Below are positions 23,360-63,639 of a stretch of 64,000 nucleotides of DNA, in pieces. Source of the stretch: Aspidiotus rigidus (Eukaryota > Arthropoda > Insecta > Hemiptera > Diaspididae); the NCBI GenBank assembly GCA_035079385.1, contig JAVHKY010000054.1, forward strand, positions 5,061,501 to 5,125,500. The letters are read 5' to 3'. Below the pieces are notes generated by a model. It saw nothing but the letters and a program-made list of their open reading frames with translations. It was not told the DNA's origin and did not search any database. How positions within the stretch are numbered: position 1 is the first letter of the stretch; the number at the start of each line of letters is the position of its first letter. A program made the position numbers and the translations under genes.

Positions 23360-26300
23360 TTATCCTACACTACACTTTCTGATTGTTCTTCTTCTTTTTT
23401 TTTTTTTTCCTTTTCTTTCTAACACACTCATTTGCTCTAATTCTACTGGTCTATCGAGAGACAAAGAACTTACTTGTGGTCTACTTTCGAATTCAAATCC
23501 TCCTTTACCGTTGAATGTCGCCGTAAGGAATGACTGTATTATTAACGAGATAAATGTGTTGATACCGAATACCAACGCGTAGCAATCACTTGGAATGTTT
23601 TTAGCAATCTCAGAGCTGTAACATAACAAAAATAAAAATATAAATTATCGAACCTATAGGAACTCTTTTTTTTTTGTACCTATTCTAATAGGGTTGCATT
23701 TATTAGTTGATAACATTGCTACCTGAGAAGGGGTAAAATATAAAATTATCCTCTTGTGCAGTGTCATGATACCTAACTTGAACGAAACAAAATATTTGAC
23801 CCAATGATTTCATAATGTCGTCATAAGACAGCAATAATTAAACAAATATCATAACCATTCGAGTAAATTTTCAGCGGATGACGTTATATCGATTCAGAAA
23901 TCATGTCTGAATAATTTAGTTCACTCAATCATATACAGCCATCTAAATTGAATATTCGCGTTCTCGTAATAGTGTAATACAAAATAGGGACGGAGACTCA
24001 TACGAGATGCTCTACCATATTGTCCGCGTCTCGTGTCGATATTTCTGAGAGAATACCTATGAGTAAGTATTTATTTGGAATTTGAGTTAGTATGAATTGG
24101 CAATAATGGAACCAAACCAAAAGTTAGACAAACATGATGAATACGCTGATCCAATATAATGGCGGTAATTGAACGGATGAAAGCTACTCGAGAAATATAT
24201 GACAATAGCACGAGCTAGAATTGTTAAAGACATCATTAATCGCAGTTATACTCGCGCGTGTTTCGTGAATGTTTGTGCGGATACTACGAACATCACAGGC
24301 GTCTGTAAATAATTGAATCCGTTTAAATTTAAAACGACAAAAAATTACAAGCAAATTGAATAATTTGATAGAGAGGATTACGATGTAGTGACTGATATTG
24401 ATGATGAACCAAAACATAAAGATGTACTTTAATGCACGGTTTTCAATCGTATCATGACTGATCGTTTTGCTTTTTTTTCTTTTTTTTTTTTCTCAATCAA
24501 AATTTATAAAAAGATTTTTGGGCGATTGAGATCGCCAGCAGAATATTTTACTTGACTTATAAGAAAAAACGTTTGGATATGATACCCAAAGTAGGAGCGT
24601 TAGGGATACTGCTAACTGATATTGACCTTTTGCAATTCATAGGTAACATTACGATTGTAAAAATAAATTTTTCTTTATGAGCATTTAAGCAACACAACCG
24701 GGCTATTAGCTCGACGATCTTAAAATGATGAGTTAGAGATGAATATATAGTGATAGTAATAGTGTGCGGATTATTACTTTTATATACATGTATATATACT
24801 TTTTTTTATATGGAGGAGTAGAATTGAGTGAGGCGTATGTATTGGAGGGAGGAGGTTATTGTATCTGAATTATTTCTTGATGCTTGAGAGTGGGAGGAGG
24901 GTACATTTGGGGAAGAGCGGAGGGGTGCGAGTAGTGGACAGGAAAAGAAGTGCTTGACTGTTGAAGTCTCTTCTTCGCAGTAAGGACAGTATGGGGGGGG
25001 GGGTAAAAGATCGGGGTTGGTGAGGTAGGAATGTTTGATTCGAGTATGACCAATTCTTAGACGAGTGAGAACAACTTCTTCACGTCTAGTATTTCTTATA
25101 GAGGAGGACCAGGGTACAGGAGTTTGTTTAATACTGTGAAGTTTGTTAGTCGTTTGGTTTTCCCAGAATGATTTCCATTTTTGAAGGATGAGAAGACGGT
25201 AGTGATTTTTGTAATCGGAGACAGGTAAACGGGTGTAATCAGTTATTTTAGCTAAGGGAATAGCGTTTTTGGCGACTCTGTCAACTGCATCATGTTCTGG
25301 TAGATTGATATGACCAGGGATCCATATGAATGTGATTTAGGAGTTGATGGACTTAATGAATGTACTCGTTCGATAATTTTATGTTATTAACTTATTATTT
25401 ACAATATTTTTTATATTATTATTGATCTCCGTGAAAAACGGGTTTTACTGTGAATGTTCACTCTTCGGATTCTGTTTTCCTACTGATCGCCGTGAAGAAC
25501 GGGGTTTTACAGGTTTCCCTGAGCAAAAGAGGGGAAATTAGAGAAAGCGAAGAGGATTAGGCCCAGCGCAAGGGATGGACGTTTGTACATGCATGTATGC
25601 ATCCTTTCTCCTTTGTTTGATACTTTTTTATCTAATAGATTGAACATCCCACTCCCCTTGAGGTAGGACTCAAAGAAAGGAAAATCTGAATTTATAATTG
25701 GCAAAATTATTTCAACGGCCAAAATTTCGTTCTTTCAAATTGAATTGATTTCTCTCTTGTTGAGGCAATTATCAAAGCACTCTGGTTTTGCTTCCGGTAC
25801 TGTTTTGATTATTTCTCTTATATTGTAATTTTGTTGTTAGTTATTTTTACTATCGGCATTGTAGGCCAATTCCTTTAGCAACAACAGCAAGGGGTCTGAG
25901 CCCAAAATTATTCTTATGAAGTGACAAACTTTCGATTCATCATTTGGTGACTGGGCCAGATTGCGGATCGCGAGTGTTATCGCGAAAATTGGAATTTTGT
26001 GTCCTGATAAACCAAATTGACCATCACTATATGGTCGACATTGATTGGTTTTTGGTCGTGCGACTGAAAAAAGACCAAATATTATGGTACCATCAGAAAA
26101 TGGTTGATTTTTAATAAATTTTTAAGATAAATCGACCAAATTTTGTCTATTCATTTCAATTGATTGTTGGTCTGATATTATTGCTACTGAATTTTGATCA
26201 TATTTTTATATGATTTTTGATCACTATGCGGAATACATTTCGACCCATTTTTTGGTCGTTATAGTCAATACAAAATGGAATTTTTCCTCGTTTCCTAGTC

Positions 26301-29300
26301 GAAAATTGATACTGTATTTATTACCCAATTTTGACTAAGATTTCTAGTCGATTTCTGGGCAGATATTTTGGGAGATACCTTGATCCATTTGAGTAGATTT
26401 TTCCTCAACATCTACCAATATTTTTACTCTTTTTTTTTTTTGTCTATTTTCGTGCAAACCGCGGTCACTCGTTTTTGCCCAAAATTTCTAGGCCATTTCT
26501 TAGAAATGAATCAATTATCATACTGCTCGCAAACTCGCAGATAAATAAGAATATTTAAAATAGAATTTAAAATTTAAAAACTAATATTCTTAATGATAGA
26601 ATTATTCAATAAATGAACATATACTACTAATCATAAAACTATTAGATTTATTATATTCAATTTAAGGAGTTCCAACGAGAATAATTATTCAATAATTTTT
26701 TTTTTTAATTTTATTCTATATCAATTTTATTTTTTGAAATTAAATTTAAATTTTATTTAAGAAGTTTATAATATAATATTATTTTGAAAAAATGAAGATC
26801 TTATTTAAATTTTCTTGATATAGTTGATTTAATCAAAAATTATTAATTTTTTTTCAGAATAATAAAATATTTATATTAATTTTCAATAAAAATTATTGTA
26901 AAACAACTAAAAAAATTGAAATTAAATAACTTTTTATATCATTCAATTTATTTAACATATTTGATCCTTTTAATGAGAATCAATTATTTAATCATTTCAA
27001 TGATTTTAAATAATCATATTGAACTAGAATGACATTTTTCATTTTTTAGAAAATTATTAGGTTCATTTATGACAAATAAAAAAATTATTCAACAACAATT
27101 TTTAAAGAGTTGATTTAAATAATAAATTAACATAAATTAAATTGATAAAAATGAATTTATAAATAATAAATTGATGAAGAATAATGATAATTATTGTGTT
27201 ACATCAATTAATTAATTATAATAATTAAATTTAAAATTAAAATTACGTAATAATGTACGAATTTTATAAATTAAATTTAAATAAATAGATACATATAATT
27301 TGTAGATTCATTAAAAAAAATTATTTAAATCAAATGATTCAATTTTAATTGGTATAAATCCATGATAAATTCCAAAAATTTCTGAACATTGTCCATAAGT
27401 AATTGAAGGTATACTACCTAATTCATATTGTAAATTTAGACCAAAATCGCACTCCTCTCAATATAATCCTGCTAACGCGGGATTGCTATCTTCATTTCTT
27501 TCTTCTCTCTTATGAGAAAGCTTTAGATATGGGCTGGTTTTTCCTGTCTAAAATGGTGGTCTAGTAATATCATCTGACTACAGACCGTTTTATGGCGTCT
27601 CTATTGCCCAAAACTTGATTGTTCTGCTTTGTCAAAAGGGGTCTATTTGTAGTGGTCCGTTAATATCGCTTGAATATAGGCTACAACAGACTATTTTATA
27701 ATCGTCTACATTGCCCAGAAATCTACCAATCTTTTTCGTCAGGAGAATTCTAATTATGATCGTTTGTTGACAATGATTAAATATTGACTATGAGAAAATA
27801 TTTTATATCGTCAAGGTTCCCTAGAAATCGACTCTTTTTTTGGTCAAAAATGGTCAAAATATAGTCAATTGAAGAGGAAGTATGGCCAATGACTGAGGAT
27901 AGACCATTTCATGGTACCTACATCACCTACAGATCGACTAATTTTTTCATTCAAAATTTTGTCAAGTTGCTTTAAATGTGGTCTACATATGATAGGGAAG
28001 AGCGGAAGTAAATCGACTGAAAAAGTTGGTCTGTTATTAGTCACTCATCAGAGCGCCCCCTCAGTCTATTTGTGGTCAACATTTACTCAAAATTAATTGA
28101 GATATCTGGTGGATCTGGTTTGTCGGGAACCAAAACTTTTCAATTGTTTCGCACAATTTTTCATCTTGATCATTTAGTACCAGAAAGAAAATTTTGTTTT
28201 TTGAGTAATTGTTTGGTCTTATCTCTCCACCTATACCATCTATCCTAGTTTGGTGTTGTACAGGACTGAAAGATTTGCTTCCAGATTTACAAGTTTCGTA
28301 TCTAAGATTCCCAGAATATTGCGGAATCTCAAGAGATTCTTCTTCTTCTTCTAAATGCTGTACTCAGTTTCTGCGTGTAGCGATCCGTTGGCTCATATCT
28401 CGCGGTTTTCGGCAGCCCGAACCAGTTGTTCCACAGTCGCCATACCAGTCCATTCGCGGATATTCTTCATCCATGACTGCCTCTTCCGGCCGATACCTCT
28501 CTTTCCCTCGATTTTTCCTTGCCTCAGCAAAGTTAAAGTCAAGATCGGAAAGATGGAGGCTTTTGGAATTTTCCATAAGCTAATATTGAAGTAATTAAAT
28601 GACGTGGTAAATTTGAGTTGTGAATATTATTACCTACCAACAAACGAGGTATCTTACCCAAGTATGAGGGGGTGGAATAAATTATTTTTAGGTGTGGCTT
28701 CATCTAAATAAGAAAGAATATCTTCTTTCACTCTTCGTATGTTTGAATCAAATTGAGTGTTTGTAGGATCAGTATTCTCCACCTAATGGGGGTAAGTTAT
28801 TTTATTATTTGTTTGGTGACAACTCAAGCATGCTCAGCAACAGGATGTAATTCCATTATTCTCCCCATTTTTGAATGAGGGATGTATTGTTTTTAAAATG
28901 ATAACATGTCGTTAATTTTTACATCATATTTTCAAATCACAACTTTGTTTTTTACTAAAGTAAGTTCAGATCGACGCCAAAGGTTTTGGGCAACTTGATG
29001 GACCCGCTGACAACGTTTCAAATGATTATCTTGTATTCTTGTTACATTTTTACTAAAAATACGGTTGTTAAAAGAGGAAGTTATTTCATTATAGCAGGGA
29101 TTTTTCACTCACGTAACTTTAAAAACCGTTATTGAGTCATGAGATAAATATAATTCAAAGACACGAAGAATATTAAATACGAAAATCGGAAGTTAGAACA
29201 CCGAGGACAAGACTTTTTCTGATGCTTGAAACAAAAAAAAAAAAGGAATTTTGAACAATTTGACAAAAATGATCTAGCTTTTTTGCACAGGTTGACGTAT

Positions 29301-36419: not shown

Positions 36420-39400
36420 TAAACAATAATTACACCAGCATCGAAAGCTTCTAAAATTTCTGGTTTCATTTCCGAAAAACCAGGTCGTTATACGTATTAC
36501 ATAATATCTAAAGAATTGGCGTGATTTTAATTATATCGCCTATATTTACCACGAAAAAACAGAATTTTTCAAAAGGTCACCAATATTATCCCATTCCAGA
36601 TGGATACTACATTCTAAAGTCGAGTCCGAAAGAAAGAAATATATATAAATATTATATCAACTTACTATCCGACAGAAAAGGCGAAAAAATGAACACCGTT
36701 GAAGAGTACATGACTCAAAAACGTTTCCCACAAACTACGCGTTTGCGAAGCCCAATAAACCAGAACGGCGCCTACGACACTGCTGCTTCCCATCAGAAAA
36801 TCGCTTCCTATACTTCCTTTCAATACGACATAGCTAGAAGCGAAGGCAGCGAGAGCTCCTGTTGATGAAGAATACACAAAAGATCAACGTCTACCAGAAA
36901 GAGCACCTTTTCTACTTTTGTACAATATAATCTTACCAAATATCGTCGAAACGCTCTCTGTAAAGCCAGTATATTGTAGAATAGGGCTGACGGTTTTCTG
37001 TTCCTCGGCGATGTGTTGCCACAAGGTTTGCGAATAGGTTCCTTCTTGATTGAAACCGCACAAGAATAACGCGTACCACATGGACCACTTCAACGTGTAC
37101 GGATTTGTGTAAACGTACTTGAACTCGCCCCACAGTCTTCTCATCACGATCGAACACGGTACTCGGTTCACCTTTTTAAGAGCTGGTGAATATCCTGTAA
37201 AGTGCAACATAAAGTACTCAGCAATTAGTACGCGATTGTGTACACTCGTTCGTTTTTCTCCTCTCTCTGTCTCTCTCAGCACCTCTCGAGAGGGCGAAAG
37301 GAACCGTCGAGTCAACTTTTCCTGATCTTAGTTAGGTACCTATACAGAATATAGCATTGAAAAAATAATAATAAAATGTCGTGACAATACGATAAGCTCT
37401 ACAAGGCAGCACTTCATCAGACGAGTGTACCGCGGTACGTTGAAAATTTTTGCACGTGAAGTATACAAAATTTTTGTCTCGAGTGCTCCTAAATTTTAAT
37501 GTCGCGCCACGATTTCGAAAATATTACCTCGTCTAAGATGTCGAGTGCGCCTTTAAACATTAGGAAATGATTGTTTAAAGGGTGCGGATTTAATATCTTT
37601 TTTTTTCTGATGTGGCCTCTGAAGACGGGCATGCTTCCCAATACTAGCTCTACACTGATATTTTATACGTTTAACCTTGATTACGATTCAACATTTCTAA
37701 CGTGGATTCTGCTTCTACTTGTTTGTTTGTTCGCCTTTTTTCCTATCGTTTTACATAATGCTATTCATGCGTTAATAATCGTCAAAACTATCAACAGCTA
37801 CCTAGTTGGTATTTGATATGAATTATTCAAATACGACGAAGACCCGTTCCGTTAATATATATAGTTATTATTATCGTCATCTAAGTGTTGCAAAACCTGT
37901 GTTGACAGGACTCGTGGGGGGGGGGGGGCGATTTTCTATCGTCGATTTCAAAGGCTCTTCATAGAGAGATTTTTTTACAAATGCTTATCAGAGTATATAC
38001 TCACCATTCTCCACAATATCGCTGTTGCTTACGACGACCGGTTTTTGTTCGGTTTTATCTAAAATGGTATTATCGTATCTATAAAAATAAAGACTAGTTT
38101 TGACAGGCGGTAAAAACAGAGCCCAAGAAAAAGTTATGAGTCCTCCTGCAAAGAAAAGAAAACGATAATATTTACAATATTAGAGTAGTGTAAGACAGCT
38201 TAAAATTCAAAATTTAAAATAGGTACAACATAATGATAGAATGGTTGAAGGGGACATGAAGAAATAGATAATATAATAGAGTTCGATGGCTGAGCGCCCA
38301 AATGTTGCTAATTCGATAGTGCTATCGGTAATATCAATGATTTTCACAATCAAAACTACCGATGGCCGCTACAACAGTCCTACTGGTGTCGATAGTTTCA
38401 TTCAATGATGGTAGGTTCTGGCCGTCCGCTACTCCATATCTCCGCTAGAGGGCGCCAAATGATAATCTCCCATAAAGAAAAAAACTACAGGGTTTGCAAA
38501 ATCCATGAAAGTATTTCTAACATTGCTTTTATGGCAAACTACTCCACAATGAAAATGAGTATGCAATCCAGCAACACCCATAAGAGCAATGTTAGAAATA
38601 CTACCATTTTGATAACACGTAGGAGAATACGTATGCAATGCGCGACATGGAAAACCCTATATAATTAATCTTATAGGGCTTTTCCATGTCGGCGCATTGC
38701 ATACCTATTCTCCTACGTGTTATCGAAGTGGAACATTGCTCTTATGGGTGTTGCTGGATTGCATACTCATGTTCATTGTGGAGTAGTTTGCCATAAGAGC
38801 AATGTTAGAAATACTACCATTTCGATAACACGTAGGAGAATACGTATGCAATGCGCCGACATGGAAAAGCCCTATAAAATAAAGCGCGTAATGTAAAGAA
38901 CTGTCGGTCGGTCTAATCAGTAAACTTCAACCTAGGAACATCGAGGGTGCTATCAGTCAGCCATCGCCGTAGTTGATACTTTTTTCTTATTGGTCTAGAA
39001 AATATTTTTATCATCATCATCGGCTGTCTAGCGCCTCATTATAGACTAAATCGCCGTGACGTCATTCACGGACATTCACTGATAACAAGGCGATGTTTGC
39101 TCCGCAATGACTTACCCCAACTTACGCGTAAGTTCAAAACAAAAAAAATGCTCCATAAGAAATACACGGGAACGTTTCGATCTTACATTCAGATTTGAAA
39201 ACAAGAAATAAGTTAAGAACCGCAGGTACATTTTCAAAGACATGAGAACTTCCTGATTCTAAATATAAACACGTAATTGCTTACTTATTTCCAATTTTTT
39301 AATTTGAGCGTATGATCCAAATGATCCCTGTGTATTCTTATGGGAATCGATATCCTACTTTGAACTGATACAGTATACTATCGCATTCTCCCGATTCCTG

Positions 39401-48400: not shown

Positions 48401-51400
48401 TATAGACAATTGTTTCAAGCCCGGTAAAAAGCTAGGAAGGCAAATTTTGCAGCCAGGGGTCAGGAAATTACTCCAAGCGAAAACTGACCGACGAAAAAAA
48501 AAAAAAACGAAAAAAACTCACTTGAGAAATTAAGCATTGACGAAAGTTGTCAACATGAAAAACTCGTATGAGAAATTAGACGATGACGAAATTTTACAGT
48601 ACGTAGAATAAAAAACTAACTGTCTACCATTCTCCAATAATTACGTTTCGAGCAGATAAGTCGATATTTTTCATAGGGAGAATTGCCATGGTGGCAAAGA
48701 AAATATCTCTTAACCGGGACATTCTTACTGACAATGTCGTATGAGATCATCATCATCTCAGGCTCAGGCAAGTCACATCATTCGCTGGATTTCCAGTGTC
48801 TTCTCTTGTCTTTCGTCCTCTCATCATTTTGTTCAAGTCTTTGAGTTGTTTCACTCGGTAATGGCATCGAAGGCTGAAATTGTAATAATTCAGTTCCAGA
48901 ACGAGCACCAAAGACTACAAAAGCAATCTAAGTGTGGCTTCATAGCTTTAAAACCATCCTTGATAGGTACCGTTTCCGTATTGTTGGCATTCAATATTGA
49001 TGAAGAGGAGCATAACCTTGACTATGACGACAACTGCCTTTTCACGCATCTTTGGTGTATCGTCCACAATCTGACGTACTCAGTTTTGATTTGAATATTT
49101 CCGATATGTTTCAACATTTGTAATCTGATTCCAGTAAAAGAATTTTGACGTTCAAATATCAATCTGGAGTTACACGGTCTTTCGCAAGACGTAAGAAGAC
49201 TCACATCTCCTGTAAATTTTTGAGATAAATCGACCAAATTATGTCTACTCCATTCAGTTGATTGTTGGTCTGGATATTATTCCTACTAAATTTTGATTTT
49301 TGGTTGATTTTTGATCACTATGCGGAATACATTTCGACCCATTTTATTTGGTCGTTATAAATTGTCAATACAAAATGGAATTTTTCCTCGTTTCTTAGTT
49401 TAAAATTGATATTGTATTTATTACTCAATTTTGATTAAGATTTCTAGTCGATTTCTGGGCAGATATTTTGGGAGATACCTTGATCCATTTTCAGTAGATT
49501 TTTCCTCAACATCTACCAATATTTTTACTCTTCTTTTTTTTTTTTTGGTCTATTCTCATGCAAACCGCAGTCACTCATTTTTGCCCAAAATTTCCAGCCG
49601 ATTTCTTAGGAATGAATCAACTGTCATAATGCTCGCAAACTCGCAGCTAAATAAAGATATTTAAAATAAAATTTAAAATTTAAAAATTAATGTTCTTAAT
49701 TATAAAATTATTCAATAAATGAACATATTCTACTAATCATAAAAATATTCGATTTATTATATTCAATTTAAGGAGTTTCAACAGGAATAATTAATAAATA
49801 TATATTATACATATTTTTTTCTTAATTTTATATCAATTTTATTTTTTGAAATTAAATTTCAACTTTATTTAAGAAGTTTATAATACCTATAATATTATTT
49901 TGAAAAAATGAAGATCTTATTTAAATTTTCTTGATAATTATAGTTGATTTAATTAAAATTAATGTTTTCTCAGAATAATTTATTTAATAAAAATATTTAT
50001 ATTAATTTTCAATAAAAATTATTATAAAACAACTAAAAAATTGGAACTAAATAACTTTTTGTATGATTCAATTTATTTAACATATTTGATCCTTCAAATG
50101 AGAATTAATTATTTCAATCATTTCAGTGATTTTAAATAATCATATTGAACCAGAATTATATTTTTCATTTTTTTGTTCAATTTTACATTCAATTGATAGA
50201 AAATTATCAGGTCTATTTATGACAAATAAAAAAATTATTAAAAAACAATTTTTAAAGAGCTAATTTAAATAATAAATTAACATGAATTAAATTTATAAAA
50301 ATTAATTTATAAATAATAAATTGATAAAGAATAATGTTAATTATTGTATTATATCAATTAAATTATAATTATTAAATTTAAAATTAAAATTACGTAATAA
50401 TGTACGAATTTTATAAATTAAATTTAAATAAATAGATACATATAATATTTAGATTCATTTTAAAAAATTATTTATAAATGATTCAATTTTATTTGGTATA
50501 AATCTATGATAAATTCCACAAATTTCTGAACATTGTCCATAAATAATTGAAGGTATACTAATTAACATTGTAATTTTAGACCAAAATTGCACTCCTCTCG
50601 ATATAATCCTGCTAACGAGATTTCTATCTTCATTTCTTTCTTCTCTCACATGAGAAAGCTTTAGATATGGCCTGGTTTTTCCTGTCGAAAATGGTGGTCT
50701 ATTAATATCGTCTAACTATAAACCGTTTTATGGCGTCTCTATTGCCCAAAACTTGATTGTTCTACTTTGTCAAAAGGGGTCCTATTTGTAGTGGTCCGTT
50801 AATATCGCTTGAATATAGGCTACAACAGACTATTCACCCAAGTTGTTGTACAACAATATCAGGGGCGTAGCGAGGGGGGGCGTGGGGGTGTCTCACCCCT
50901 CCACAAGTTATTGCAGTCGGCAAAAAGCGGAGCAGTCGGCTTTGATTTTTGCCGCCCCTGAGCCTGAGTCGGCACTTCCACACATTCACCCCCCCCACAT
51001 AAATGGTCCTCGCTACGCCACTGAATGATATTACTAGTCGTATATAAGCCTACATTTTGTCGTGATTACATTCATTTGTTGTAATACTCAAATTTCTGAG
51101 GTACGTTCATTTTTTTTTTGTTGTTAGTCAATTTACGCTGGCGTACAACCTATTATTCTTGTCGTACTGACGCTCTATTCTGCCGTAGCATTAAATGGCA
51201 CCCATTTTATAATTGTCTACATTGCCCAGAAATCTACCAATCTTTTTCGTCATCAGAAGAATTCTAATTACGGTGGTTTGTTGACAATGATTAAATATTG
51301 ACTATGAGAAAATATTTTATATCGTCAAGGTTCCCGACTCTTTTTTTGGTCAAAAATTGTCAAAATATTATAGTCAATTGCAGAGGAAGTATGGCCAATG

Positions 51401-52323
51401 ACTGAGGATAGACCATTTTATGGTACCTACATCACCTATACAGATCAACTAATTTTTTCATTCAAAATTTTGTCAAGTTGCTTTAAATGTGGTCTAAATA
51501 TGTCACGGAAGAGCGGAAGTCAATCGACCGAAAAAGTTGGTCTGTTAATAGTCACTCATCAGAGCGCCCCCTCAGTCTATTTTTGGTCAACATTTACTCA
51601 AAATCAACTGAGATATCTGGTCGATCTGGTTTATCGGGCTTAAAACTGTCACCTAACTAGGTAAACCGTAAGATAGAAAAAAACGTTTTCTAGTATCACT
51701 CTCGCACGATAGATCATTATTCGTAAAACGTTGTTGTTCTTCGATATCAAATAGAACTATCCTATGCCAACAGACTCCGTGTGTGTTGCCAATACTTGGA
51801 TGGCTAGCCAGTTAACAACCGATAGAAGTTAAAGAAGCAGTATACTCGCAACTTTATAGATGAACGAAATTACGCTAAAAACAAGTGATGCGTCCGACAA
51901 AAACAGCGCTCGGATGCCATTTTCGATTCTTATTTTTTGAATAGTTAATGTTTGTTCAGCAGACCTTCCCCTTTTGTTCCCGCTTGCTATTGAGTTACGG
52001 TCGAGACGCGACTTCGAAAAATTAATTTTCATAACGATACATTTTTCTGTTTGCTAGATTCGATTTTCCACTTGAACGATAAACTCGATGGATGTTTACT
52101 GTTAAATAGGAGAATTTTTTTATATTATATAAAAACTAAAGTGTTTACGCACCCACATCGCCGGCATACTTCCAAACCAAATTAGCGTCACCATCATGCC
52201 AACATGACTAATGGCATTCAGAAATATCACAGGTCGATATCTCAACCAGTCTGTCAATAGGAACACAAATATCAATTCCACTAGCGAGATGTACGTTGCC
52301 ACTGGGTATATCTCTTGAATGAC
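23360..52323 (-). CDS. SLC19-family (reduced folate/thiamine carrier-like) membrane transporter, 5' incomplete
   Basis: Six exons join in perfect phase: 52323-52153, 45468-45261, 38145-38005, 37194-36937, 36858-36666 and 23615-23360 (stop); 408 residues in total. All have GT-AG borders. Family signatures: QEIYPVATYISLVELIFVFL and LTDWLRYRPVI; EVAYYTYIYTKVGKEHYQ, VTSYMRTSSLLGR; GGLITFSWALFLPPVK; a Tyr/Trp-rich start of the second half (SMWYALFLCGFNQ); SEIAKNIPSDCYALVFGINT in the last exon. SLC19 proteins have 12 membrane helices and carry folates or thiamine across membranes; the substrate here cannot be told. Helix 1 and the start codon are missing: no matching exon was found on the minus strand up to 64000. 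The C terminus is basic (KGKKKKRRR). The introns, up to 13 kb, are packed with transposons. Confidence 0.9.
24825..25345 (-). pseudogene. Non-LTR retrotransposon fragment: RNase H end and C-terminal tail
   Basis: Read on the minus strand: TFIWIPGHINLPEHDAVD and RVAKNA (end of an RNase H domain), then RLRIGHTRIKHSYL, a PPYCPYC zinc-like motif and STVKHFFSCPLL. This is the C-terminal order of Jockey/I-type ORF2. The frame stays largely open, but the rest of ORF2 is absent. It lies in the 13-kb last intron of the SLC19-like gene. Confidence 0.65.
26608..26700 (+). pseudogene. cox1: Mitochondrial cox1 5'-end fragment (copy A)
   Basis: With TGA read as Trp: NKWTYTTNHKT, close to the conserved start of insect COX1 (KWxxSTNHKDIG). 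After one shift the frame resumes towards the next conserved block. Confidence 0.6.
26930..27075 (+). pseudogene. cytb: Mitochondrial cytochrome b fragment (copy A)
   Basis: From 27015: HIELEWHFSFF, with Trp from TGA, matching the HIxPEWYFLFAYxILRSI block of cytochrome b. Copy A lacks the codons between FF and RKLLG. Confidence 0.6.
27311..27425 (-). pseudogene. cox2: Mitochondrial cox2 3'-end fragment (copy A)
   Basis: Minus strand: YGQCSEIFGIYHGFIPIKIE, then SFDLNNFF and a TAA stop; the copper-site block of COX2 is GQCSEICGxNHxFMPI. The second copper-binding Cys is Phe here. Confidence 0.75.
28350..28560 (-). pseudogene. RTE-like LINE C-terminal fragment
   Basis: Minus-strand frame: LLRQGKIEGKRGIGRKRQSW, then MKNIREWTG and EQLVRAAENREI followed by a stop. 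GKIEGKRGxGR...SWxxNIREWTG...R is the recurrent C-terminal tail of many insect LINE reverse-transcriptase ORFs. Only about 70 codons remain. It starts a little beyond the right end of copy A. Confidence 0.6.
28600..31590. other. Intronic stretch without recognisable features
   Basis: Between exons 5 and 6 of the SLC19-like gene. AT-rich, with only short spurious frames on both strands. Nothing supportable seen. Confidence 0.4.
31604..31708. repeat. Fold-back element, family copy 1
   Basis: AAGGATAGAAGTTCATACCT and CGAGAA on the left pair with TTCTCGAGG and the inverted copy on the right; loop about 40 bp. The flanking CACATGAAGGA / TCTTAACGTG also pairs loosely. A second copy of the same family is at 42117-42232. 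Confidence 0.65.
32155..32400. repeat. Inverted repeat with about 65-bp arms
   Basis: Left 32155-32225 and right 32336-32400 share, inverted, AGCTAAC, ATGTCTCC, AGATAC and AATGTAG-type words; the loop is about 110 bp. The two short frames starting MSPPEI (minus) and MSPPQI (plus) are simply the two arms read outward. Confidence 0.5.
33045..33735. mobile_element. Long-TIR element (arms about 120 bp)
   Basis: Left arm 33055-33175 and right arm 33600-33730 are inverted copies (GTAATAGG.CCCCTT, CAGTTCCAAAA, TTGACCAAAAATGA, GGACATACAT). Between them lie TAACCGTT/AACGGTTA-type repeats and poly-A/poly-T runs. It is non-coding. Confidence 0.55.
34050..34193. mobile_element. hAT-type MITE with exact 8-bp target duplication
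   Basis: 144 bp from CAGGGGGGGGCGAAAGGG to GGCTACGCCCCTG, flanked by CCTTGCGC on both sides (34042-34049 and 34194-34201). An exact 8-bp duplication and CAGGGG..CCCCTG ends fit the hAT superfamily. Removing it restores the interrupted LINE frame context. Confidence 0.8.
34463..34915. mobile_element. TA-flanked MITE, pogo/mariner-like (453 bp)
   Basis: Terminal inverted repeats CAGTGGAAACTCTATATAAC (left) and its complement (right), at least 24 bp, flanked by TA on both sides (34461-34462, 34916-34917). The phrase TTCGTTATATAGA recurs inside. CAGTGGAA ends and TA duplication fit pogo/Tigger-type elements. It is inserted in the LINE fragment. Confidence 0.8.
35561..36330. other. Intronic stretch, no gene seen
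   Basis: AT-rich; poly-T run at 36081-36101. No recognisable element. Confidence 0.4.
36335..36416 (+). repeat. (GA)n microsatellite
   Basis: About 40 uninterrupted GA units, some 250 bp downstream (in gene direction) of SLC19-like exon 5. Confidence 0.95.
38405..38885. repeat. Large palindrome with a third arm copy
   Basis: Arms 38545-38660 and 38675-38795 are inverted copies, meeting at CCTATATAATTAATCTTATAGG. A further direct copy of the left arm follows at 38798-38876. All copies share TAAGAGCAATGTTAGAAATA, AACACGTAGGAGAATA and GACATGGAAAA. A perfect RNA hairpin of over 100 bp could form. It lies in the intron just upstream of SLC19-like exon 3, with no TSD identified. Confidence 0.7.
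39042..39444. mobile_element. MITE, 403 bp, about 45-bp TIRs
   Basis: TAGACTAAATCGCCGTGACG at the left and its complement at the right, with homology continuing through TCATTCA.G.ACATT.ACTGATAACA. It is non-coding and lies in an SLC19-like intron. Confidence 0.75.
40698..40774. repeat. Short fold-back, second copy of the 7.3-kb family
   Basis: GGAGTTATCTGTCAATAGAG and GCTCTTTTGACAGATGACTC pair; the loop contains CCCAATCAATATAATTCTTA, similar (inverted) to the loop at 7309-7388. Confidence 0.6.
41110..41640. repeat. Direct duplication of an A-rich block ending in GGTCGGC/AGTCGGC
   Basis: ACTGACCCAAAGAAA followed by an A/G-rich run and TTGCAATACGGTTGG occurs at 41120-41170; the second copy with ATTGCAATACAGTCGG ends at 41632. 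GGTCGGC also appears at 40614 and 41210. It is possibly one degraded element. Confidence 0.4.
42117..42232. repeat. Fold-back element, family copy 2
   Basis: Left CATGTTAAGAGAGGATATAG and right TATCCTTTCTTAACAT pair, with CACACCTCAAGAATGGAACG / CATTCCATTTTTGAGGTAC inside. Same family as 31604-31708. Confidence 0.6.
42432..42740. mobile_element. MITE, 309 bp, about 58-bp TIRs
   Basis: TGCTGCTGCAGTTGTCTCCC plus TTCAAAAATGTAAAC and GCGTGTTA at the left pair with AATAACACGCAAAAAG, TTTGTTTACTTTTTGAAGGG and CAGCTGCAGCAGG at the right. Confidence 0.65.
42929..43190. mobile_element. Hairpin MITE, 262 bp, about 40-bp arms
   Basis: CTGCAGTCTTTGACTATATA then GTGGACTGCGCTAGCG (left) pairs with CGCTTAGCGCAGTCC then TAAAGTCAAAGTCTGCAG (right). 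The GC-richer interior has an open minus-strand frame of about 60 codons with no recognisable domain. Confidence 0.65.
43647..44182. mobile_element. MITE, 536 bp, with nested inverted repeats
   Basis: Outer arms AATGCTGCTTGCTGAAGTTC...TCTTTGTTTAC and the inverted copy at the right. A second inner pair, TATACCTCTTATGGACTGAG / CTCAGTCCATAAGAGGTATA (43724 and 43900), forms its own hairpin. GCTTATGGGAAATT also recurs inverted. It is non-coding. Confidence 0.7.
45470..47480. other. Intronic stretch, no gene seen
   Basis: Between SLC19-like exons at 52.2 and 45.4 kb. Poly-A tracts near 45.6 and 47.2 kb; GTTATAACCG repeats around 47.09-47.17 kb resemble the interior of the 33.0-kb element. Small frames on both strands look spurious. 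Confidence 0.35.
47500..48300. repeat. Array of GCTCGAGAGTTGAAATTTTT repeats with an embedded hairpin
   Basis: The unit (AGCTCGAGAGT-GAAATTTTTCCAAGTCCCCCTCCTA.CATATATA) occurs at about 47870, 47925 and 48115, with an inverted piece at 48225-48260. A second word, GACGGCTTCCTTAACG, repeats at 47582 and 47681. A fold-back (47999-48097) splits the array. Confidence 0.6.
47999..48097. repeat. Perfect 43-bp-arm fold-back
   Basis: ATAGAGAAATATACTCACGA and AGAGTAAGAAACACAAATAC on the left are perfectly inverted on the right; the loop is about 13-15 bp. Perfect arms suggest recent origin or gene conversion. No target duplication is clear. Confidence 0.75.
49714..49800 (+). pseudogene. cox1: Mitochondrial cox1 5'-end fragment (copy B)
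   Basis: NKWTYSTNHKNI with TGA as Trp, the best-preserved COX1 start among the four copies. Confidence 0.68.
50141..50225 (+). pseudogene. cytb: Mitochondrial cytochrome b fragment (copy B)
   Basis: HIEPELYFSFFCSILHSIDR then KLSGLFM; aligns with HIxPEWYFLFAYxILRSIxxKLGG. The family Trp is Leu in this copy. Confidence 0.7.
50462..50600 (-). pseudogene. cox2: Mitochondrial cox2 3'-end fragment (copy B)
   Basis: YGQCSEICGIYHRFIPNKIE then SFINNF; both copper-site Cys and the His are present. The upstream part of the minus frame (FWSKITM) fits the preceding COX2 strand only loosely. Confidence 0.78.
50860..51023. mobile_element. hAT-type MITE (164 bp)
   Basis: CAGGGGCGTAGCGAGGGGG at the left and CCTCGCTACGCCACTG at the right. 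The flanks AACAATAT and AATGATAT agree at 6 of 8 positions, a plausible decayed 8-bp duplication. The terminal word matches the element at 34050-34193. Confidence 0.65.
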
Positions 52324-53990: not shown

Positions 53991-54999
53991 ATGTCACTTC
54001 AATTTTACCTCTATTTTAGGGGTTATAAGCCTCTCAGCGCCCCTAAAATGTCGGAAGAATTATTTGATATTCTTCTTCGAATTTGGCGGTCCGAATTACG
54101 TAAGAATCCACTTAAATTGGGAACCAAAAAGAATATTTCAGTCATTTATATGCAAGAACTCCTTCCAGTTAGGCAACCTGCCATAACGGGACCCATACGG
54201 GGCTTTGGACCGTGGCGCCATGGCTCAAATTTTTCATTTAAGCATACTGAATGTTCGTTCCAAATTTCGTGATTTTAACACGAAATGCAAAGTTGATCTC
54301 ACAATTTGCACTAAGTCGCCAGACTAAGACACTTGTGTACTAAGAAAGACATGAAACACGATCTTTATATTTTATTTGGCCATGTCAGAAAATTTTTCTA
54401 TCAGCTTTTTAAGTGCTGCTCATCATGATTGTAAATGTTTGAAATTACCATTGATTTATATCAGAAATACGTATAAGGTCCAAAGTATCCTACGTAGTTC
54501 AAAATTACAATCATCCGTAATGTAATTCTGCCGCTCATTCTTACATGATGATCCAGAGTTATTTTTCTTTCCTTCTTTGATGGCAGCACTATAGATTATC
54601 TGTATTTTGTATAATCAAGTTTATTTACTGTTGTCTGTTGACTGTTGAGTTTTATGAAATGTCCAACCATCGTCGCTCGTGATTAGGTGGTGCGGGAAAC
54701 GACGAGAGATTATTTTTAACTGCGTGAGCTTTCTTCTCTCTCTCTCACTATAGTATTAAGACTAGCGTACAAGCAACTTCTTTTTAGTCTGAACTTTTCC
54801 TTTCTTTTACTCATTAATTTTGAAAAATCACTGCAGAGCTGAGATGGAAGATGTGATCGGCTCGCTAAAACAAAATGGTAAGAATTTTTATGTCTCAGAT
54901 AAAAGAAATTACCTGGTATCTATAGGTATGACTTTAAGATGAGAAATTTTCTGCCTCGCCCCCTGTCAAATCGTTTATGCTTTTTTCCTTTTTTTTTGT

Positions 55000-55470
55000 C
55001 AATTTGAGATCGGTATAAAGTCGACCGGCATACATTAGCAGAGTAAGAACGTGCGTAGTCGATAAAAAATTTAGGGAAGTCGACTCGAAATTGACTCCAG
55101 ATAGGTATCGATTGTTGGTCGATTCCAGGTCAGTCGACGAATTTGAGGTTACAAATAAATTAAAATCGGCTCTGCGGCGTAGTTGATTATAGGTTGATAG
55201 AACATTTGGAGAGTTCTACTCGAATTCGACTTCAGAACGATCTCGATTATTGGTTGATAAATTTGGAGTTGCAAACCGACTTGTAATCCGCCCAACGGAA
55301 ACGTTGACTTGAAATAAACCCAATAAAGAAGTCGACTCGTAAACGACTTCAGATCGACGTCATTTTTAGGTCAATTTAAAGACGACCAGCGCATATTATC
55401 ACAGAACTAAATGAAGCTACTTGAAGTCGACTTAACAGAACAATTGATTCGAGATCAATATAAAAATTGG
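55000..55470. repeat. GTCGAC-rich degenerate repeat, left flank of copy C
   Basis: Many variants of GTCGACTCGAAATTGACTCC and AGATCGA.GT..ATTGTTGG; the same words (AAAGTCGACCGGC, GACTCGAAATCG) continue on the other side of copy C at 57630-58000. Copy C therefore inserted into an older element of this composition. Confidence 0.5.
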
Positions 55471-56179
55471 ACGAGCTCCCGATAAACCAGAAGGACCAGA
55501 TATCTCAGTTGATATTGAGTAAATGTTGACCAAAAATAGACGGAGAGGGCGCTCTGATGAGTGACTAATAACAGACCAACTTTTTCAGTCGATTTACTTC
55601 CGCTCTTCCCTGCCATATTTAGATCACATTTAAAGCAACTTGAAAAAATTTTGAATGAAAAAATTAGTCGATCTGTAGGTGATGTAGGTACCATAAAATG
55701 GTCTATCCTCAGTCATTGGCCATACTTCCCCTGCAATTGACTATATTTTGACCATTTTTTACCAAAAAAAAAGTCGATTTCTAGGGAACCTTGACGATAT
55801 AAAATATTTTCTCATAGTCAATATTTAATCATTGTCAACAACCCACCGTAATTAGAATTCTTCTGATGACGAAAAACATTGGTAGATTTCTGGGCAATGT
55901 AGACGATTATAAAATAGTCTTGTAGCCTATATTCAAGCGATATTAACGGACCACTACGAATAGACCCCTTTTGACAAAGCAGAACAATCAAGTTTTGGCA
56001 ATGGAGACGCCATAAAACGGTCTATAGTTAGATGATACTAACAGACCACCATTTTCGACAGGAAAAACCAGTCCATATCTAAGGCTTTCTCATGTGAGAG
56101 AAGAAAGAAATGAAGATAGCAATCCCGTTAGCAGGATTATATCGAGAGAGTCCAATTGTGGTCTAAAATTACAATATTA

Positions 56180-56291
56180 ATTAATATACCTAACTTCAAT
56201 TATTTATAGACAATATTCAGAAATTTGTGGAATTGATCATGGATTAAAATACCAATTAAAATTGAATCATTTAATTTAAATAATTCTTTAA
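56180..56291 (+). pseudogene. cox2: Mitochondrial cox2 3'-end fragment (copy C)
   Basis: YRQYSEICGIDHGLKYQLKL; the first copper Cys is Tyr and the following Tyr is Asp. These changes are shared with copy D. Confidence 0.68.
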
Positions 56292-56529
56292 AATGAATCT
56301 AAATATTACATGTATCTATTAATTTAAATTTAATTTATAAAATTTGTACATTATTATTTAAATTAATTTGAAATTTATTTATTATTATTTAATTGATATA
56401 ACACAATAATATTATCATTACTCTTTATCAATTTATTATTTATAAATTAATTTTTATCAATTTAATTTATGTTAATTTTGTTATTTAAATTGAATATTTA
56501 AAAATTGTTTTTTAATAATTTTTTTATTT

Positions 56530-56612
56530 GTCATAAATAAACCTAATCTTTTTCTATTAATTGAATGTAAAATTGAACAAAAAAATGAAAAATATCATTC
56601 TGATTCAATATG
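56530..56612 (-). pseudogene. cytb: Mitochondrial cytochrome b fragment (copy C)
   Basis: HIESEWYFSFFCSILHSIN; EWYF is intact with Trp from TGA, while Pro is Ser. Confidence 0.68.
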
Positions 56613-56949
56613 ATTATTTAAAATCATTGAAATGATTGAATAAATAATTCTCATTTAAAGGATCAAATATGTTAAATAAATTGAATGATTCTAAAAGTTT
56701 TTTAGTTTCAATTTTTTTAGTTGTTTTATAATAATTTTTGTTGAAAATTAATATAAATATTTTTAATAAATAAATAATTCTGAGAAAAAATTAATTTTTA
56801 TTAAATCAATTATCAAGAAAATTTAAATAAGGTCTTCATTTTTTCAAAATAATATTATAGGTATTATAAACTTCTTAAATACAGTTAAAATTTAATTATT
56901 TCAAAAAATAAAATTGATATAAAATTAAAAAAAAAAAAAAAATTATATT

Positions 56950-57036
56950 TAATAATTATTCCCGTTGAAACTCCTTAAATTGAATACCTATAATAAATCT
57001 AATATTTTTATGATTAGTAGAATATGTTCATTTATT
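56950..57036 (-). pseudogene. cox1: Mitochondrial cox1 5'-end fragment (copy C)
   Basis: NKWTYSTNHKNI on the minus strand, then a small insertion before the next block. Confidence 0.65.
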
Positions 57037-57999
57037 GAATAATTTTATTATAAAGAATATTAATTTTCAAATTTTAAATTTTATTTTAAATATCTTTATT
57101 TAGCTGCGAGTTGGCGAGCAATATGACAGTTGATTCATTCCTAAGAATTCGGCTGGAAATTTTGGTCAAAAATGAGTGACCGCGGTTTGCGCGAGAATAG
57201 ATATTGGTAGATGTTGAGGAAAAATTTACTCAAAATGGATCAAAGTATCTCCCAAAATATCTGCCCAGAAATCGACTAGAAATCTTAGTCAAAATTGAGT
57301 AATAAATACAATATCAATTTTAGACTAAGAAACGAGGAAAAATCCCATTTTGTATTGACAATTACAACGACCAAAAAAAAAAAATAGGTAGAAATGTATT
57401 CCGCATAGTGATCAAAAATCAACCATAAATATGATCAAAATTTAGTAGGAATAATATCAGACCAACAATCAACTGAAATGAATAGACAAAATTTGGTCGA
57501 TTTATCTGAAAAATTTACTAAAAATGAACCATTTTCTGATGGTACCATAATATTTGGTATTTTTTCAGTCGTACGGCCAATAACGAACCAATGTCGACCA
57601 TATAGTGATGGTCGATTTGGTTTATCGGGAGTCTACTCGAAATCGACGTCAATCTGAGATAGATACAAAGTCGACCGGCGTAGCAACATTCAAACCAAAT
57701 GCAATGGTGCTGCAATACATCTTTAAGGAAAAAACTGAAATAGACCTAGTGAGTCGGTTTCTGGTTTACATTACCTGAGAAAATCGAATTCAAGAGCGCA
57801 GCATTTGATTTCTGGTCGATAAAAAATTTGGAATTGTTGACTCGAAATCGGCTCAATATCGACACCCCCACGTAGACCTGAAATTGACGTCGATGTGATG
57901 TACATTACAACAATATATCGACGCAATTTTGACCACTTTGAAAGAAGTAGCCCAAATTCTCGGCCTACATCGACTGAAAATCGACGGTCGACATGGTTT

Positions 58000-60240
58000 A
58001 TCAGGATAGGTGAGCTTTTCTCTCCCCCATTTTATTTATACTCAGAAGTGACGTTCGGCTTGAACCCATATCATTTTTTGTTACCTCTTTTCACGTAGTA
58101 AAATAAAAATATTCGTGATAAACGTAGATAGTACTTTTATCGAAAGGCAAAACATTGTGGCATATACCAACCGCATACATTCCTGGCTGCTTATAGTACT
58201 TTGAAAGATAAGAGACTTATTTTGACAAAGTTTCTCTTTGTTCTAGACAGTCAATATGAAGATTACGGTTAACCGTCAGCAATATGGGCTTAGGAATGGT
58301 GACAAGGAAGACTGTTAAACTAGGTGACTAATTTAGAATAAGAGATTAAAATGTGCATCTAGAAAGACGAGGATAAAAATGCAAGTCGTACGATTGAAAT
58401 TTTGATTAGATATTAAAAAAATGTGAAAAATGTTTACTCCGTGGCAAATAAATTCTATAGAAAAACTGTGAGGACGTCACAAGAAAAAGATTGCCCTAAC
58501 AATAATGAAATACGAGGTGATAAGGTAGTCATATACTCGAAGAATAAATTGTGGCAATAAGTAAGTGAATCAGTTCTGAGGATAAGGTGAAAAGGTAATC
58601 TCATAAATGGTAAAGGAGCTTTGAGCAGAGGTTGGTGATCCTTTCAATAACACTCTCACCATTTTCTGAACCTCATTCTCATAATATAATACCGTGATAT
58701 CCGCTATAAAGTATGAAGAACGGACAAATTTATGTCGAGCCACATTTTTCGACCTCGATATCACAGGTTAGTAAAGAGTCCCTTAGTGAAGAAACTAAGT
58801 ACAATGAAAATACGTTTTTGGTTGCCACTTTCAAGTTGAGAGCAGAACCTGTTTTTCGTTTCTTCAAACTAGAACAAAAGTTCCCTTCCGTTCGGTCAGG
58901 TTGTAAGCTGATAACATAGGTACATCGATTTTTCAACGAATCCCTTCAATATTCTGGTATGTTTCGCGGAGTTCCCATGCGAGTACGTGCCCCGAGTGGA
59001 GTTGAAACACGAAAGCTAAATAAATCCGTGGAAAGCTCCTTTCACTCCAAAGCTCGAGTTCAACTTATTACGGCGAATGCCAGTGACCCGAAAGTGTACA
59101 CCCACACCCGACTTTTCTTGTTTTGTGTATTTTTACTTAATTTATCGAATTTTACAACGGGTAAGCAGCAAATTTGGTAACCGTTAAACGAATTTATTCT
59201 CGTCAGCCTGGGTCATTAACCTTGAACTTGAACTCGAATTGACGTACAAAGTGTACGAAGTGCGAAAACAACCAGAGAAAGTTGCCTATTGTTTAGCGAG
59301 TGAGTGCGTGTTCTGGCGTGTATTTAGAAAAGATCTCGTCGGCGTGCATTATTATACACTCGTGAAGGTATTTCCACCGGCACGACTTAATGGACATTAA
59401 TTCGCGTTTCGTACAAATATAAGGATTTGAAGTCGAATAAATTCTCTCAAAAGGAGGGGATCCGTACCTGTACGAACAGCTTGGAACGAGAATTGGACAC
59501 TCCTCATGAATAGCCTACCCCCATACGCGTGTACACCACGGTACTCCTGAAATTGCTGTAAAAATTCATTCTCGGCAGCAGCCTTTCCAATCGTTTTTAT
59601 TTACTTATTCGTGTACGCACGCAACATATCGTGCATTAAAATCTGCGATTGAGAGCAATCTAGATTTTCAAGGTCTTTTATCAATTCGTTTTCTCTGATT
59701 GCCTTAATTGAGTAGCGTTTGGCGATGTCGACAATTTGAGGAACGTTTTATCATGAAACTACAACTGTACTGCTGCACATTTAATCGAACTGATATACGC
59801 GTAGTCTCGTACTCTATATTATGTACTGCAACTTTGCCTTCGGATTCGTTTCAATATTATACTTTCGTCACCATTGGAAGAAGGTCCACGTTTTCAGCAA
59901 ATTTGAAAAAACCTTAGTAAGAAAATCTCTCCATACTTTGAACTTATATCGATTTGTGCAAAAATGAATTCTCTCTTACTTTGATTTTCTAGATCTTCAC
60001 CAAAAGATGGTGAAAAATTTAACATGTTTCAAGTCTTTCCTCTATTCCTACCCTAATCTTAAAATTAATATGCGTCCCGCCACACGGGCGTCCGTACGAC
60101 CCATGACTTTGCGGCTTAGAAAATTTTTGACGTCGACCCTCAGCTCTACCCCTGATTCCGGACTTTGCGTCCGAGCTCGAGAGTAGGTACAGTTCTCTAG
60201 TATAGGAAATAGTATTTTACTATCATAAAACGAACAAAAC
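58000..60240. other. Gene-free stretch
   Basis: No recognisable protein, RNA or element; only short frames on both strands. Confidence 0.4.
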
Positions 60241-60254
60241 GGGGAAATATTTTA

Positions 60255-61235: not shown

Positions 61236-61971
61236 CACGTGAACGGAGGAAAGCGATATACTCGCGCTGCATGGCGGCCCTCGCCGCGGCTCGGGTCGCC
61301 AAAGCGCTCGTATAGAAATCGCTCTCCTCCGTCCCTTATAGCGTAATATACTATTTCGCTCGAAGTAGGGGTGTGCCCCCTCCCTGCTCCCTCCCGATAA
61401 ACAAAATCGACCATCACTATATGGTCGACATTCGTTGGTTTTTGGTCGTACGACTGAAAAAAGATCAAATATTATGGTACCATTGGAAAATGGTTGATTT
61501 TTAGTAAAATTTCGAGGTAAATCGACCAAATTTTGTCTATTCATTCCAGTTGATTGTTGGTCTGATAAATTTTGATCATATTTTTGGTTGATTTTTTATC
61601 ACTATGCGGAATACATTTCGACCCATTTTTTTTTGGTCGTTATAATTGTCAATACAAAATGGAATTTTTCCTCGTTTCTTAGTTTAAAATTGATATTGTA
61701 TTTATTACGCAATTTTGACTAAGATTTCTAGTCGATTTCTGGGCAGATATTTTGGGAGATACCTTGATCCATTTTCAGTAGATTTTTCCTCGACATCTAC
61801 CAATATTTTTACTCCTTTTTTTTTTTTGTCTATTCTCGTGCAAACCGCGGTCACTCATTTTTGCCCAAAATTTCTAGCCCATTTCTTAGGAATGTGCTCG
61901 CAAACTCGCAGATAAATAAAGATAATTAATTTAAAATCTAAAAATTAATATTCTTAATAATAAAATTATTC

Positions 61972-62055
61972 AATAAATGAACATACTACTAATCATAAAA
62001 ATAAAAATATTAGTTATTAAATATATTAAATTTAAGGAGTTTCAACAGGAATAAT
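61972..62055 (+). pseudogene. cox1: Mitochondrial cox1 5'-end fragment (copy D)
   Basis: NKWT, then a two-base deletion, then TNHKN in another frame. Confidence 0.55.
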
Positions 62056-62384
62056 TATTAAATATAAATTTTTTTTTTTCAATTTTATATCAATTTTATT
62101 TTTTGAAATTAAATTTTAACTGTATTTAAGAAGTTTATAATACCTATAATATTATTTTGAAAAAATGAAGATCTTATTTAAATTTTCTTGATAATTATAG
62201 TTGATTTAATAAAAATTAATTTTTTCTCAGAATTATTTATTTATTAAAAATATTTATATTAATTTTCAACAAAAATTATTATAAAACAACTAAAAAAATT
62301 GAAACTAAAAAACTTTTTAGAATCATTCAATTTATTTAACATATTTGATCCTTTAAATGAGAATTATTTATTTAATCATTTCAA

Positions 62385-62571
62385 ACGAAGAAAAACAAGG
62401 CTTTACCCGCACAAATTTTATTTTTAAGACGACGTTTCGACCAACTGGTCGTCTTTCTTGAAAAAGACCACCAGTTGGTCGAAACGTCGTCTTAAAAATA
62501 AAATTTGTGCAGGTAAAGCCTTGTTTTTCTTCGTTTGAATTATTCCTTGCACGTATAAAAATTCCTTTTAG
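62385..62571. mobile_element. Palindromic insertion with 14-bp target duplication and hammerhead-like arms
   Basis: TTTAATCATTTCAA occurs directly on both sides (62371-62384 and 62572-62585). Inside, about 70-bp arms (ACGAAGAAAAACAAGG... and its complement) are nearly perfect and meet at CTTTCTTGAAAAAGACC. The arms hold GACC-loop-GGTCGAAACGTCG, the same module as at 7702-8031. A 30-bp non-palindromic AT-rich tail ends the insertion. It is inserted into the cytb-derived part of copy D. Confidence 0.7.
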
Positions 62572-62599
62572 TTTAATCATTTCAATGATTTTAAATAAT

Positions 62600-62685
62600 C
62601 ATATTGAATCAGAATGATATTTTTCATTTTTTTGTTCAATTTTACATTCAATTAATAGAAAAAGATTAGGTTTATTTATGACAAA
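62600..62685 (+). pseudogene. cytb: Mitochondrial cytochrome b fragment (copy D)
   Basis: HIESEWYFSFFCSILHSINR, like copy C. Confidence 0.68.
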
Positions 62686-62929
62686 TAAAAAAATTATTAA
62701 AAAACAATTTTTAAATATTCAATTTAAATAACAAAATTAACATAAATTAAATTGATAAAAATTAATTTATAAATAATAAATTGATAAAGAGTAATGATAA
62801 TATTATTGTGTTATATCAATTAAATAATAATAAATAAATTTCAAATTAATTTAAATAATAATGTACAAATTTTATAAATTAAATTTAAATTAATAGATAC
62901 ATGTAATATTTAGATTCATTTTAAAGAAT

Positions 62930-63035
62930 TATTTAAATTAAATGATTCAATTTTAATTGGTATTTTAATCCATGATCAATTCCACAAATTTCTGAATATT
63001 GTCTATAAATAATTGAAGTTAGGTATATTAATTAA
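62930..63035 (-). pseudogene. cox2: Mitochondrial cox2 3'-end fragment (copy D)
   Basis: YRQYSEICGIDHGLKYQ, identical in its changes to copy C. Confidence 0.68.
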
Positions 63036-63639
63036 TATTGTAATTTTAGACCACAATTGGACTCTCTCGATATAATCCTGCTAACGGGATTGCTATCTTC
63101 ATTTCTTTCTTCTCTCACATGAGAAAGCCTTAGATATGGACTGGTTTTTCCTGTCGAAAATGGTGGTCTGTTAGTATCATCTAACTATAGACCGTTTTAT
63201 GGCGTCTCCATTGCCAAAACTTGATTGTTCTGCTTTGTCAAAAGGGGTCTATTCTTAGTGGTCCGTTAATATCGCTTGAATATAGGCTACAAGACTATTT
63301 TATAATCGTCTACATTGCCCAGAAATCTACCAATGTTTTTCGTCATCAGAAGAATTCTAATTACGGTGGGTTGTTGACAATGATTAAATATTGACTATGA
63401 GAAAATATTTTATATCGTCAAGGTCCCCTAGAAATCGACTCTTTTTTTGGTCAAAACTGGTCAAAATATAGTCAATTGCAGAGGAAGTATGGCATGTGTA
63501 TCCTCAGGATTATATATTGAAAAACGTGCAATTTCGACCTCGATTCTGGAGCCCTATCAGATTATGCACTCGAAAACTAGGCAATGTGCCTACACAATAA
63601 AAAGGACCAGGCTCGCACTGATAAAAAGAAGGACAAATC

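Follow-up and report, generated by a model that had tools for sequence, protein, structure and literature searches.

Four copies of one element in the window

The stretch analysed here (the window) comprises 64,000 nucleotides of Aspidiotus rigidus contig JAVHKY010000054.1 (positions 5,061,501 to 5,125,500 of the forward strand), and comparison of the window with itself revealed four copies of a single element, c1 to c4. Judged by its structure, the element is a 2.1-kb non-autonomous cut-and-paste DNA transposon bounded by terminal inverted repeats (TIRs), and it carries a core that reads as mitochondrial DNA (mtDNA). Each copy has a left arm (about 540 bp where complete), an AT-rich core of about 930 bp with a guanine plus cytosine (GC) content of 14–17%, and a right arm (about 650 bp where complete and uninterrupted). 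The arm/core junctions are identical among the four copies. The TIRs are imperfect and 21 bp long, approximately CCCGATAAACCAA[A/G]TCGACCA and starting CCCGAT, and alignments between the window copies end at the TIRs wherever TIRs exist. The window lies in a 19-Mb contig of the 441.1-Mb, 102-contig assembly, a nuclear location as in any nuclear mitochondrial DNA insert (numt). The parts of the four copies are as follows.

26003..28127, plus strand: c1, both TIRs, without a matching 2-bp duplication, 91% to the consensus of the copies fetched from the genome
26003..26023, plus strand: c1 left TIR
26541..27437, plus strand: c1 mtDNA mosaic core
28107..28127, minus strand: c1 right TIR
49213..51638, plus strand: c2, 5′ TIR end gone (left ~110 bp), ~370-bp insertion in right arm
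49648..50577, plus strand: c2 mtDNA mosaic core
49684..49791, plus strand: frame with cox1 N-terminal fragment in c2, weak at the protein level; family consensus matches mitochondrial positions 9063-9200 as DNA
50081..50260, plus strand: frame with cytochrome b fragment in c2, Pfam E 8.5e-5
50452..50598, minus strand: cox2 C-terminal fragment in c2, Pfam COX2 E 9.6e-9 (frame 50452-50715)
51618..51638, minus strand: c2 right TIR
55478..57629, minus strand: c3, complete, both TIRs, without a matching 2-bp duplication
55478..55498, plus strand: c3 right TIR
56165..57103, minus strand: c3 mtDNA mosaic core
57609..57629, minus strand: c3 left TIR
61393..63493, plus strand: c4, right ~240 bp gone
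61393..61413, plus strand: c4 left TIR
61912..63047, plus strand: c4 mtDNA mosaic core, including a 201-bp later insertion

The element bears the hallmarks of transposition

A search of the genome with the element yielded 1467 first-look candidates, of which 40 were scored, giving 59 matching rows. We fetched rows 2-19 and 21 as 19 stretches, together with a longer stretch around row 22 (L029), leaving out row 20, whose match starts further into the query, as well as the remaining rows. Because they were chosen from the top rows, the 19 fetched copies are a sample of the best-scoring copies. Every one of them carries both TIRs and an identical 2-bp target-site duplication (19/19), with 11 different dinucleotides among them and no duplication extending to 3 bp, and their flanks differ from one another. 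Eighteen of the 19 measure 2119–2171 bp, the other being 2520 bp long with a nested insertion, and the core-bearing element in L029 has TA on either side. A young subfamily, in which mean pairwise divergence is 2–3%, accounts for 11 of the 19. Across the 441-Mb genome, the junction between left arm and mtDNA occurs at least 314 times when up to 3 mismatches are allowed (a reversed control gave 0), and the listed places are spread over 30 contigs, with many on contig C54.

Inside the window copies we found no stop-to-stop frame of at least 150 amino acids that could represent a transposase, and a Pfam scan of the six frames of the c2 core returned mitochondrial families only, in two of the six, and no transposase. 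The TIR had no match in viral contigs. Helitrons make no target duplication, and the 2-bp duplications in 19/19 fetched copies therefore do not fit that class; nor do they fit Pack-MULEs, whose target duplications are 8–11 bp. Duplications of 2 bp are made by CACTA/EnSpm and ISL2EU elements; the TIRs here begin with CCCGAT rather than CACT, and a literature search on 2-bp duplications listed no papers. Under a strict length limit of about 800 bp for miniature inverted-repeat transposable elements (MITEs), both the ~2.1-kb core-bearing element and its complete core-less relative of 965 bp are too long.

The core matches mitochondrial DNA from the same assembly

Three contigs of the assembly, C97, C87 and C89, carry mtDNA. 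They are 99.9–100% identical where shared and consist of repeats of a ~13,379-bp unit with 9.4–9.6% GC, as would be expected of concatemers from a circle read more than once. Pfam matched 8 of ten open reading frames (ORFs) scanned, identifying cox1, cox2, cox3, atp6, cytb, nad3 and two more proton-pumping nad genes, while the frames that we call nad2 and 3′ nad5 had no Pfam match. These two putative names, like nad4/nad5 for the two Proton_antipo_M matches, are our own reading. The frame read as nad5 is broken close to a long run of T, where a homopolymer error may be the cause. Passages of a report on the armored scale Aulacaspis yasumatsui describe a mitogenome with 92% AT and a rearranged gene order (PMC12973041), and the mtDNA described here is consistent with it.

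At the protein level, we scanned ten frames from the window cores with Pfam, using the invertebrate mitochondrial code. The COX2 C-terminus was recognised in c2 (E 9.6e-9) and c1 (E 2.3e-6) and weakly in a c4 fragment (E 0.11), and cytochrome b in c2 (E 8.5e-5) and c3 (E 2.9e-6). The COX1 start was weakly backed, with a phmmer E value of 0.56 against PDB, yet all six matches were COX1. Four of the ten frames, including the c1 cytochrome b frame, matched no Pfam family, and one gave two weak unrelated families. The COX2 fragment, searched as protein, matched nothing, and Rfam on c2 gave four matches, every one under the gathering score. A frame containing FNMFDPxNEN was tried as cytochrome b and rejected; contig C97 shows it to be the atp6 start.

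We then aligned the core to the mitochondrial unit with a composition-corrected method that permits jumps between mitochondrial positions and strands. The consensus core (~935 bp, 12.5% GC) of the older subfamily resolved into nine main pieces of 48–138 bp, scrambled in order and orientation and 82–95% identical to the mtDNA, for a total of 205 nats compared with 0 in six triplet-block shuffles. The younger consensus gave 178 nats and eight main pieces, the atp6 piece not being placed. The pieces of the older consensus are listed here with their mitochondrial coordinates.

Piece 1: 9063-9200, plus strand, cox1 start
Piece 2: 12602-12494, minus strand
Piece 3: 13062-13008, minus strand, nad5 region
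Piece 4: 11433-11508, plus strand, atp6 start
Piece 5: 1964-2069, plus strand, cytb
Piece 6: 12879-12945, plus strand
Piece 7: 5464-5399, minus strand, cox3
Piece 8: 4471-4424, minus strand, putative nad2
Piece 9: 11311-11176, minus strand, cox2 end

With blastn, five alignments of the core to the mtDNA scored 110–167 bits, against a maximum of 105 bits in 200 dinucleotide shuffles. Because shuffled cores reach 105 bits, we did not accept plain BLAST as sole evidence. What decides the matter is that the core matches mtDNA present in the same assembly, and on this basis we regard the core as mitochondrial. The original prediction, made from the window alone, had read a COX1 start, a cytochrome b block and a COX2 block in the core, with tryptophan encoded by TGA and cox2 on the opposite strand. 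Both of the latter features are borne out in the core frames, and all three genes are present, but the core is a mosaic of about nine pieces rather than three gene blocks, adding atp6, the nad5 region, cox3 and putative nad2. The comparison with the mitogenome that it had proposed came out in its favour.

The mitochondrial cargo diverges like a passenger

Every one of the six frames contains stops, in the window cores and in the consensus cores alike, as in numts free of coding constraint. Mean pairwise divergence among the 11 young copies is 3.3% in the core and 2.1 and 2.5% in the arms; among the 8 older fetched copies it is 5.5% in the core and 5.1 and 5.6% in the arms, and among c1–c4 it is 7.4% and 6.4 and 4.6%, respectively. 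The rate of change in the core equals or slightly exceeds that in the arms; the core therefore looks like a passenger, decaying as nuclear DNA and not maintained as a gene. In the young cores, changes from A/T to G/C number 110 versus 33 in reverse, and the per-site rate is higher for G/C to A/T (33/1286 versus 110/8989). By our arithmetic these rates balance near 32% GC, close to the 35% of the arms, in line with the expectation for mtDNA that relaxes once in the nucleus.

Core-less relatives point to a single capture

A second element in the L029 stretch shares the arms (75–79% to c3) and lacks the core. A search with this core-less element gave 1083 candidates, 40 of them scored, and 74 rows. 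Five more matches cross the arm-arm junction, four of which were fetched (L083, L084, L085 and L086), and the insertion site is uninterrupted in all five core-less copies examined. The site reads exactly AACTCGC-AGA-CCAAAATCG in L083 and L085, is one base off in L086 and a few bases off in L084 and L029. Core-bearing copies hold the mosaic between two AGA triplets, and the site itself loses no element bases. L085 is a complete core-less element of 965 bp with the duplication TT. Most other rows of this search end near query position 519-530 or span around 322-530; the sole such row fetched, L087, is core-bearing, with a piece of the left arm duplicated.

In a FastTree phylogeny built on the arms only and rooted at its midpoint, the 24 core-bearing copies (the 19 fetched, c1–c4 and L087) form one clade with a support of 0.999 that sits nested among the core-less five, a topology that suggests one capture followed by amplification. 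The cytb piece of L087 begins 16 bp earlier on the mitochondrial map than in the other copies (1948 versus 1964), and a motif search found this stretch in none of the 23 others, indicating that later deletions trimmed the insert. Three lineages at least, the L087-like, the older and the younger, descend from the capture.

The reverse history, in which the mosaic was present from the start of the family and the core-less elements are deletion derivatives that precisely lost everything between the two AGA triplets, has in its favour that a deletion across a 3-bp repeat could restore an uninterrupted site, that the core-less copies examined number only five and that the tree is midpoint-rooted. 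It is nonetheless very unlikely, as the core-less copies are the most diverged and enclose all 24 core-bearing ones, and as about 10 bp of left arm, retained by all five, are missing from the core-bearing consensus. Even less probable is that conventional numts became numerous without transposition, through segmental duplication or tandem amplification. Four copies within 38 kb, the many listed places on C54 and the missing target duplications at c1 and c3 might suggest such a process, but similarity ends at the TIRs, the listed junctions lie on 30 contigs, and the different flanks and target duplications of 19/19 fetched copies contradict it. That the core is AT-rich low-complexity DNA merely resembling mtDNA is barely credible: for all its low GC content, the many spurious AT-rich matches that BLAST yields and the 105 bits reached by shuffled cores, this idea is contradicted by the 205 nats against 0 in shuffles, by the Pfam COX2 match and by DNA identities of 87–95% for the pieces from cytb and from 13062-13008.

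Probable capture and amplification of mtDNA by a transposon

Taken together, the TIRs, target duplications, uninterrupted sites, mitochondrial source, copy number and single clade make it very probable that a non-autonomous TIR transposon took up an mtDNA mosaic once and then amplified it genome-wide. A short non-autonomous element would have been broken at one internal site of the form AACTCGC-AGA-CCAAAATCG, and about nine short mtDNA pieces would have been joined at the break in scrambled order and orientation, presumably during break repair, leaving AGA at both ends. Because the composite kept both TIRs, it could continue to be moved by a transposase supplied in trans, each jump copying the mitochondrial mosaic too, and at least 314 recognisable junctions would be what remains.

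Several points weigh against this account. The flanks of c1 (GT/AA) and c3 (CT/AG) do not form matching 2-bp duplications, and one end is absent from each of c2 and c4. A share of the consensus core, roughly 13% in the older and 20% in the younger subfamily, has no mitochondrial assignment, the limits of the pieces move with the assumed identity and parameters, and two doubtful pieces (23 and 14–17 bp) were left out of the count. In L087, taken as a single older copy, six pieces were placed and the cox1 start was not among them. We infer mobilisation in trans and the nature of the transposase, as well as the assignment of C97, C87 and C89 to the insect's own mtDNA rather than to a contaminant.

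The original prediction of a transposon family that captured and multiplied mtDNA is supported by the mtDNA match, the TIRs, the duplications, the junction count and the core-less relatives, the last two being observations that it had itself called for. It had described four copies with TIRs, arms and an AT-rich core. These are borne out, with the TIR end gone on the left of c2 and on the right of c4. Independent breakpoints in unrelated flanks, which would have spoken against it, were not seen: c1–c4 share the same arm/core junctions, and each of the 19 fetched copies sits in its own flanking sequence, bordered by a 2-bp duplication.

We also consider the doubtful but possible extension that the mosaic was repair filler at a transposase-related break in the element (e.g. 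abortive gap repair after excision), so that transposition helped to make the numt, and that the AT-rich core then aided spread.

Later changes to the window copies and neighbouring features

The host of c3 is another, GTCGA-rich repeat element (54990-58005), which contains internal repeats and has a related end at positions 57985-58005. Joined together, the c3 flanks align over the insertion point to paralogous units of this host repeat; an exchange of flanks by inversion (c1/c3 or c2/c3) was dropped on this ground. The 201-bp insertion in the c4 core (62371-62571) is mostly foldback and lies between 14-bp direct repeats TTTAATCATTTCAA; it looks like a later mobile insertion with a long target duplication. 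The ~370-bp insertion in the c2 right arm (about 50830-51204) has CAGGGGCGTAGCGAGG and CCTCGCTACGCCACTG ends, and we take it to be hAT-like. Between c3 and c4, which are inverted and ~5 kb or more apart, 3/1106 aligned sites differ (about 55800-56900 and 62105-63410, most of the core plus the right arm), with 49/668 differing to the left of this tract and 5/87 to the right; the near-identity reflects either a gene-conversion tract or an assembly effect.

Elsewhere in the window lie a retrotransposon at 14856-19116 on the minus strand (RVT_2, E 8.1e-55), presumably Copia-type, a transposase fragment at 9177-9689 (PF21787, TNP-like RNase H, E 1.2e-23), which we assume to be of P-element type, and a local repeat complex at 38505-38856 with inverted (96%) and direct (98%) repeats of 66–89 bp. 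A search with the copia gag produced one match but no taxon. The insect assembly also keeps a 33-kb contig, C94 (L059), whose bacterial Der GTPase shares 86% identity with its counterpart in Candidatus Uzinura diaspidicola, an armored-scale symbiont, the next best match being 50%; judged by this protein, C94 appears to be a Uzinura-like symbiont contig, and its presence points to an armored scale as the host.

Comparison with known systems

MITEs are non-autonomous elements with TIRs, a short target duplication and a high copy number, all of which the element described here shares, and it is long for a MITE (2.1 kb) because of its core. Pack-MULEs and other gene-capturing transposons carry foreign sequence between their TIRs. 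Our element resembles Pack-MULEs in being non-autonomous with foreign cargo between TIRs, and differs from them in that the cargo is a scrambled organellar mosaic at one site and the duplications are 2 bp rather than 8–11 bp.

Complex or concatenated numts also exist. Like numts in general, the core derives from mtDNA, joins several pieces at one nuclear site and decays without visible function. In the titles and abstract beginnings of the best-matching literature we found no numt inside a DNA transposon family, within a partial library and the limits of our search wording, and passages of PMC5059674 and PMC12910113 mention no numts inside transposons. According to a standard review, in the part relevant here, numts possess no mechanism of transposition, and their duplication is expected to occur in tandem or through segmental duplication (PMC2820518). 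Against that statement, the present numt would have borrowed such a mechanism, its mosaic lying between transposon TIRs and being multiplied by transposition.

One insert at many sites and of many ages would offer a clean system for studying numt decay in replicate, for asking how scrambled mtDNA pieces get joined into chromosomes, and for learning whether organellar cargo affects transposon success. It is also a warning that, in such insects, transposon-borne mtDNA can mislead repeat libraries, mitogenome assembly and barcoding.

Links between numts and repeats have been described before: Drosophila numts are found near repeats, according to passages of PMC3296715, and in fig wasps the corresponding part of PMC7600805 ties duplicate-type numts, by correlation, to transposable elements in their flanks, mainly Gypsy or Jockey. 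The family described here resembles the fig-wasp case, as presented there, in linking bursts of numts to transposable elements, and differs from it in that the numt lies inside one DNA transposon with TIRs, target duplications and uninterrupted sites.

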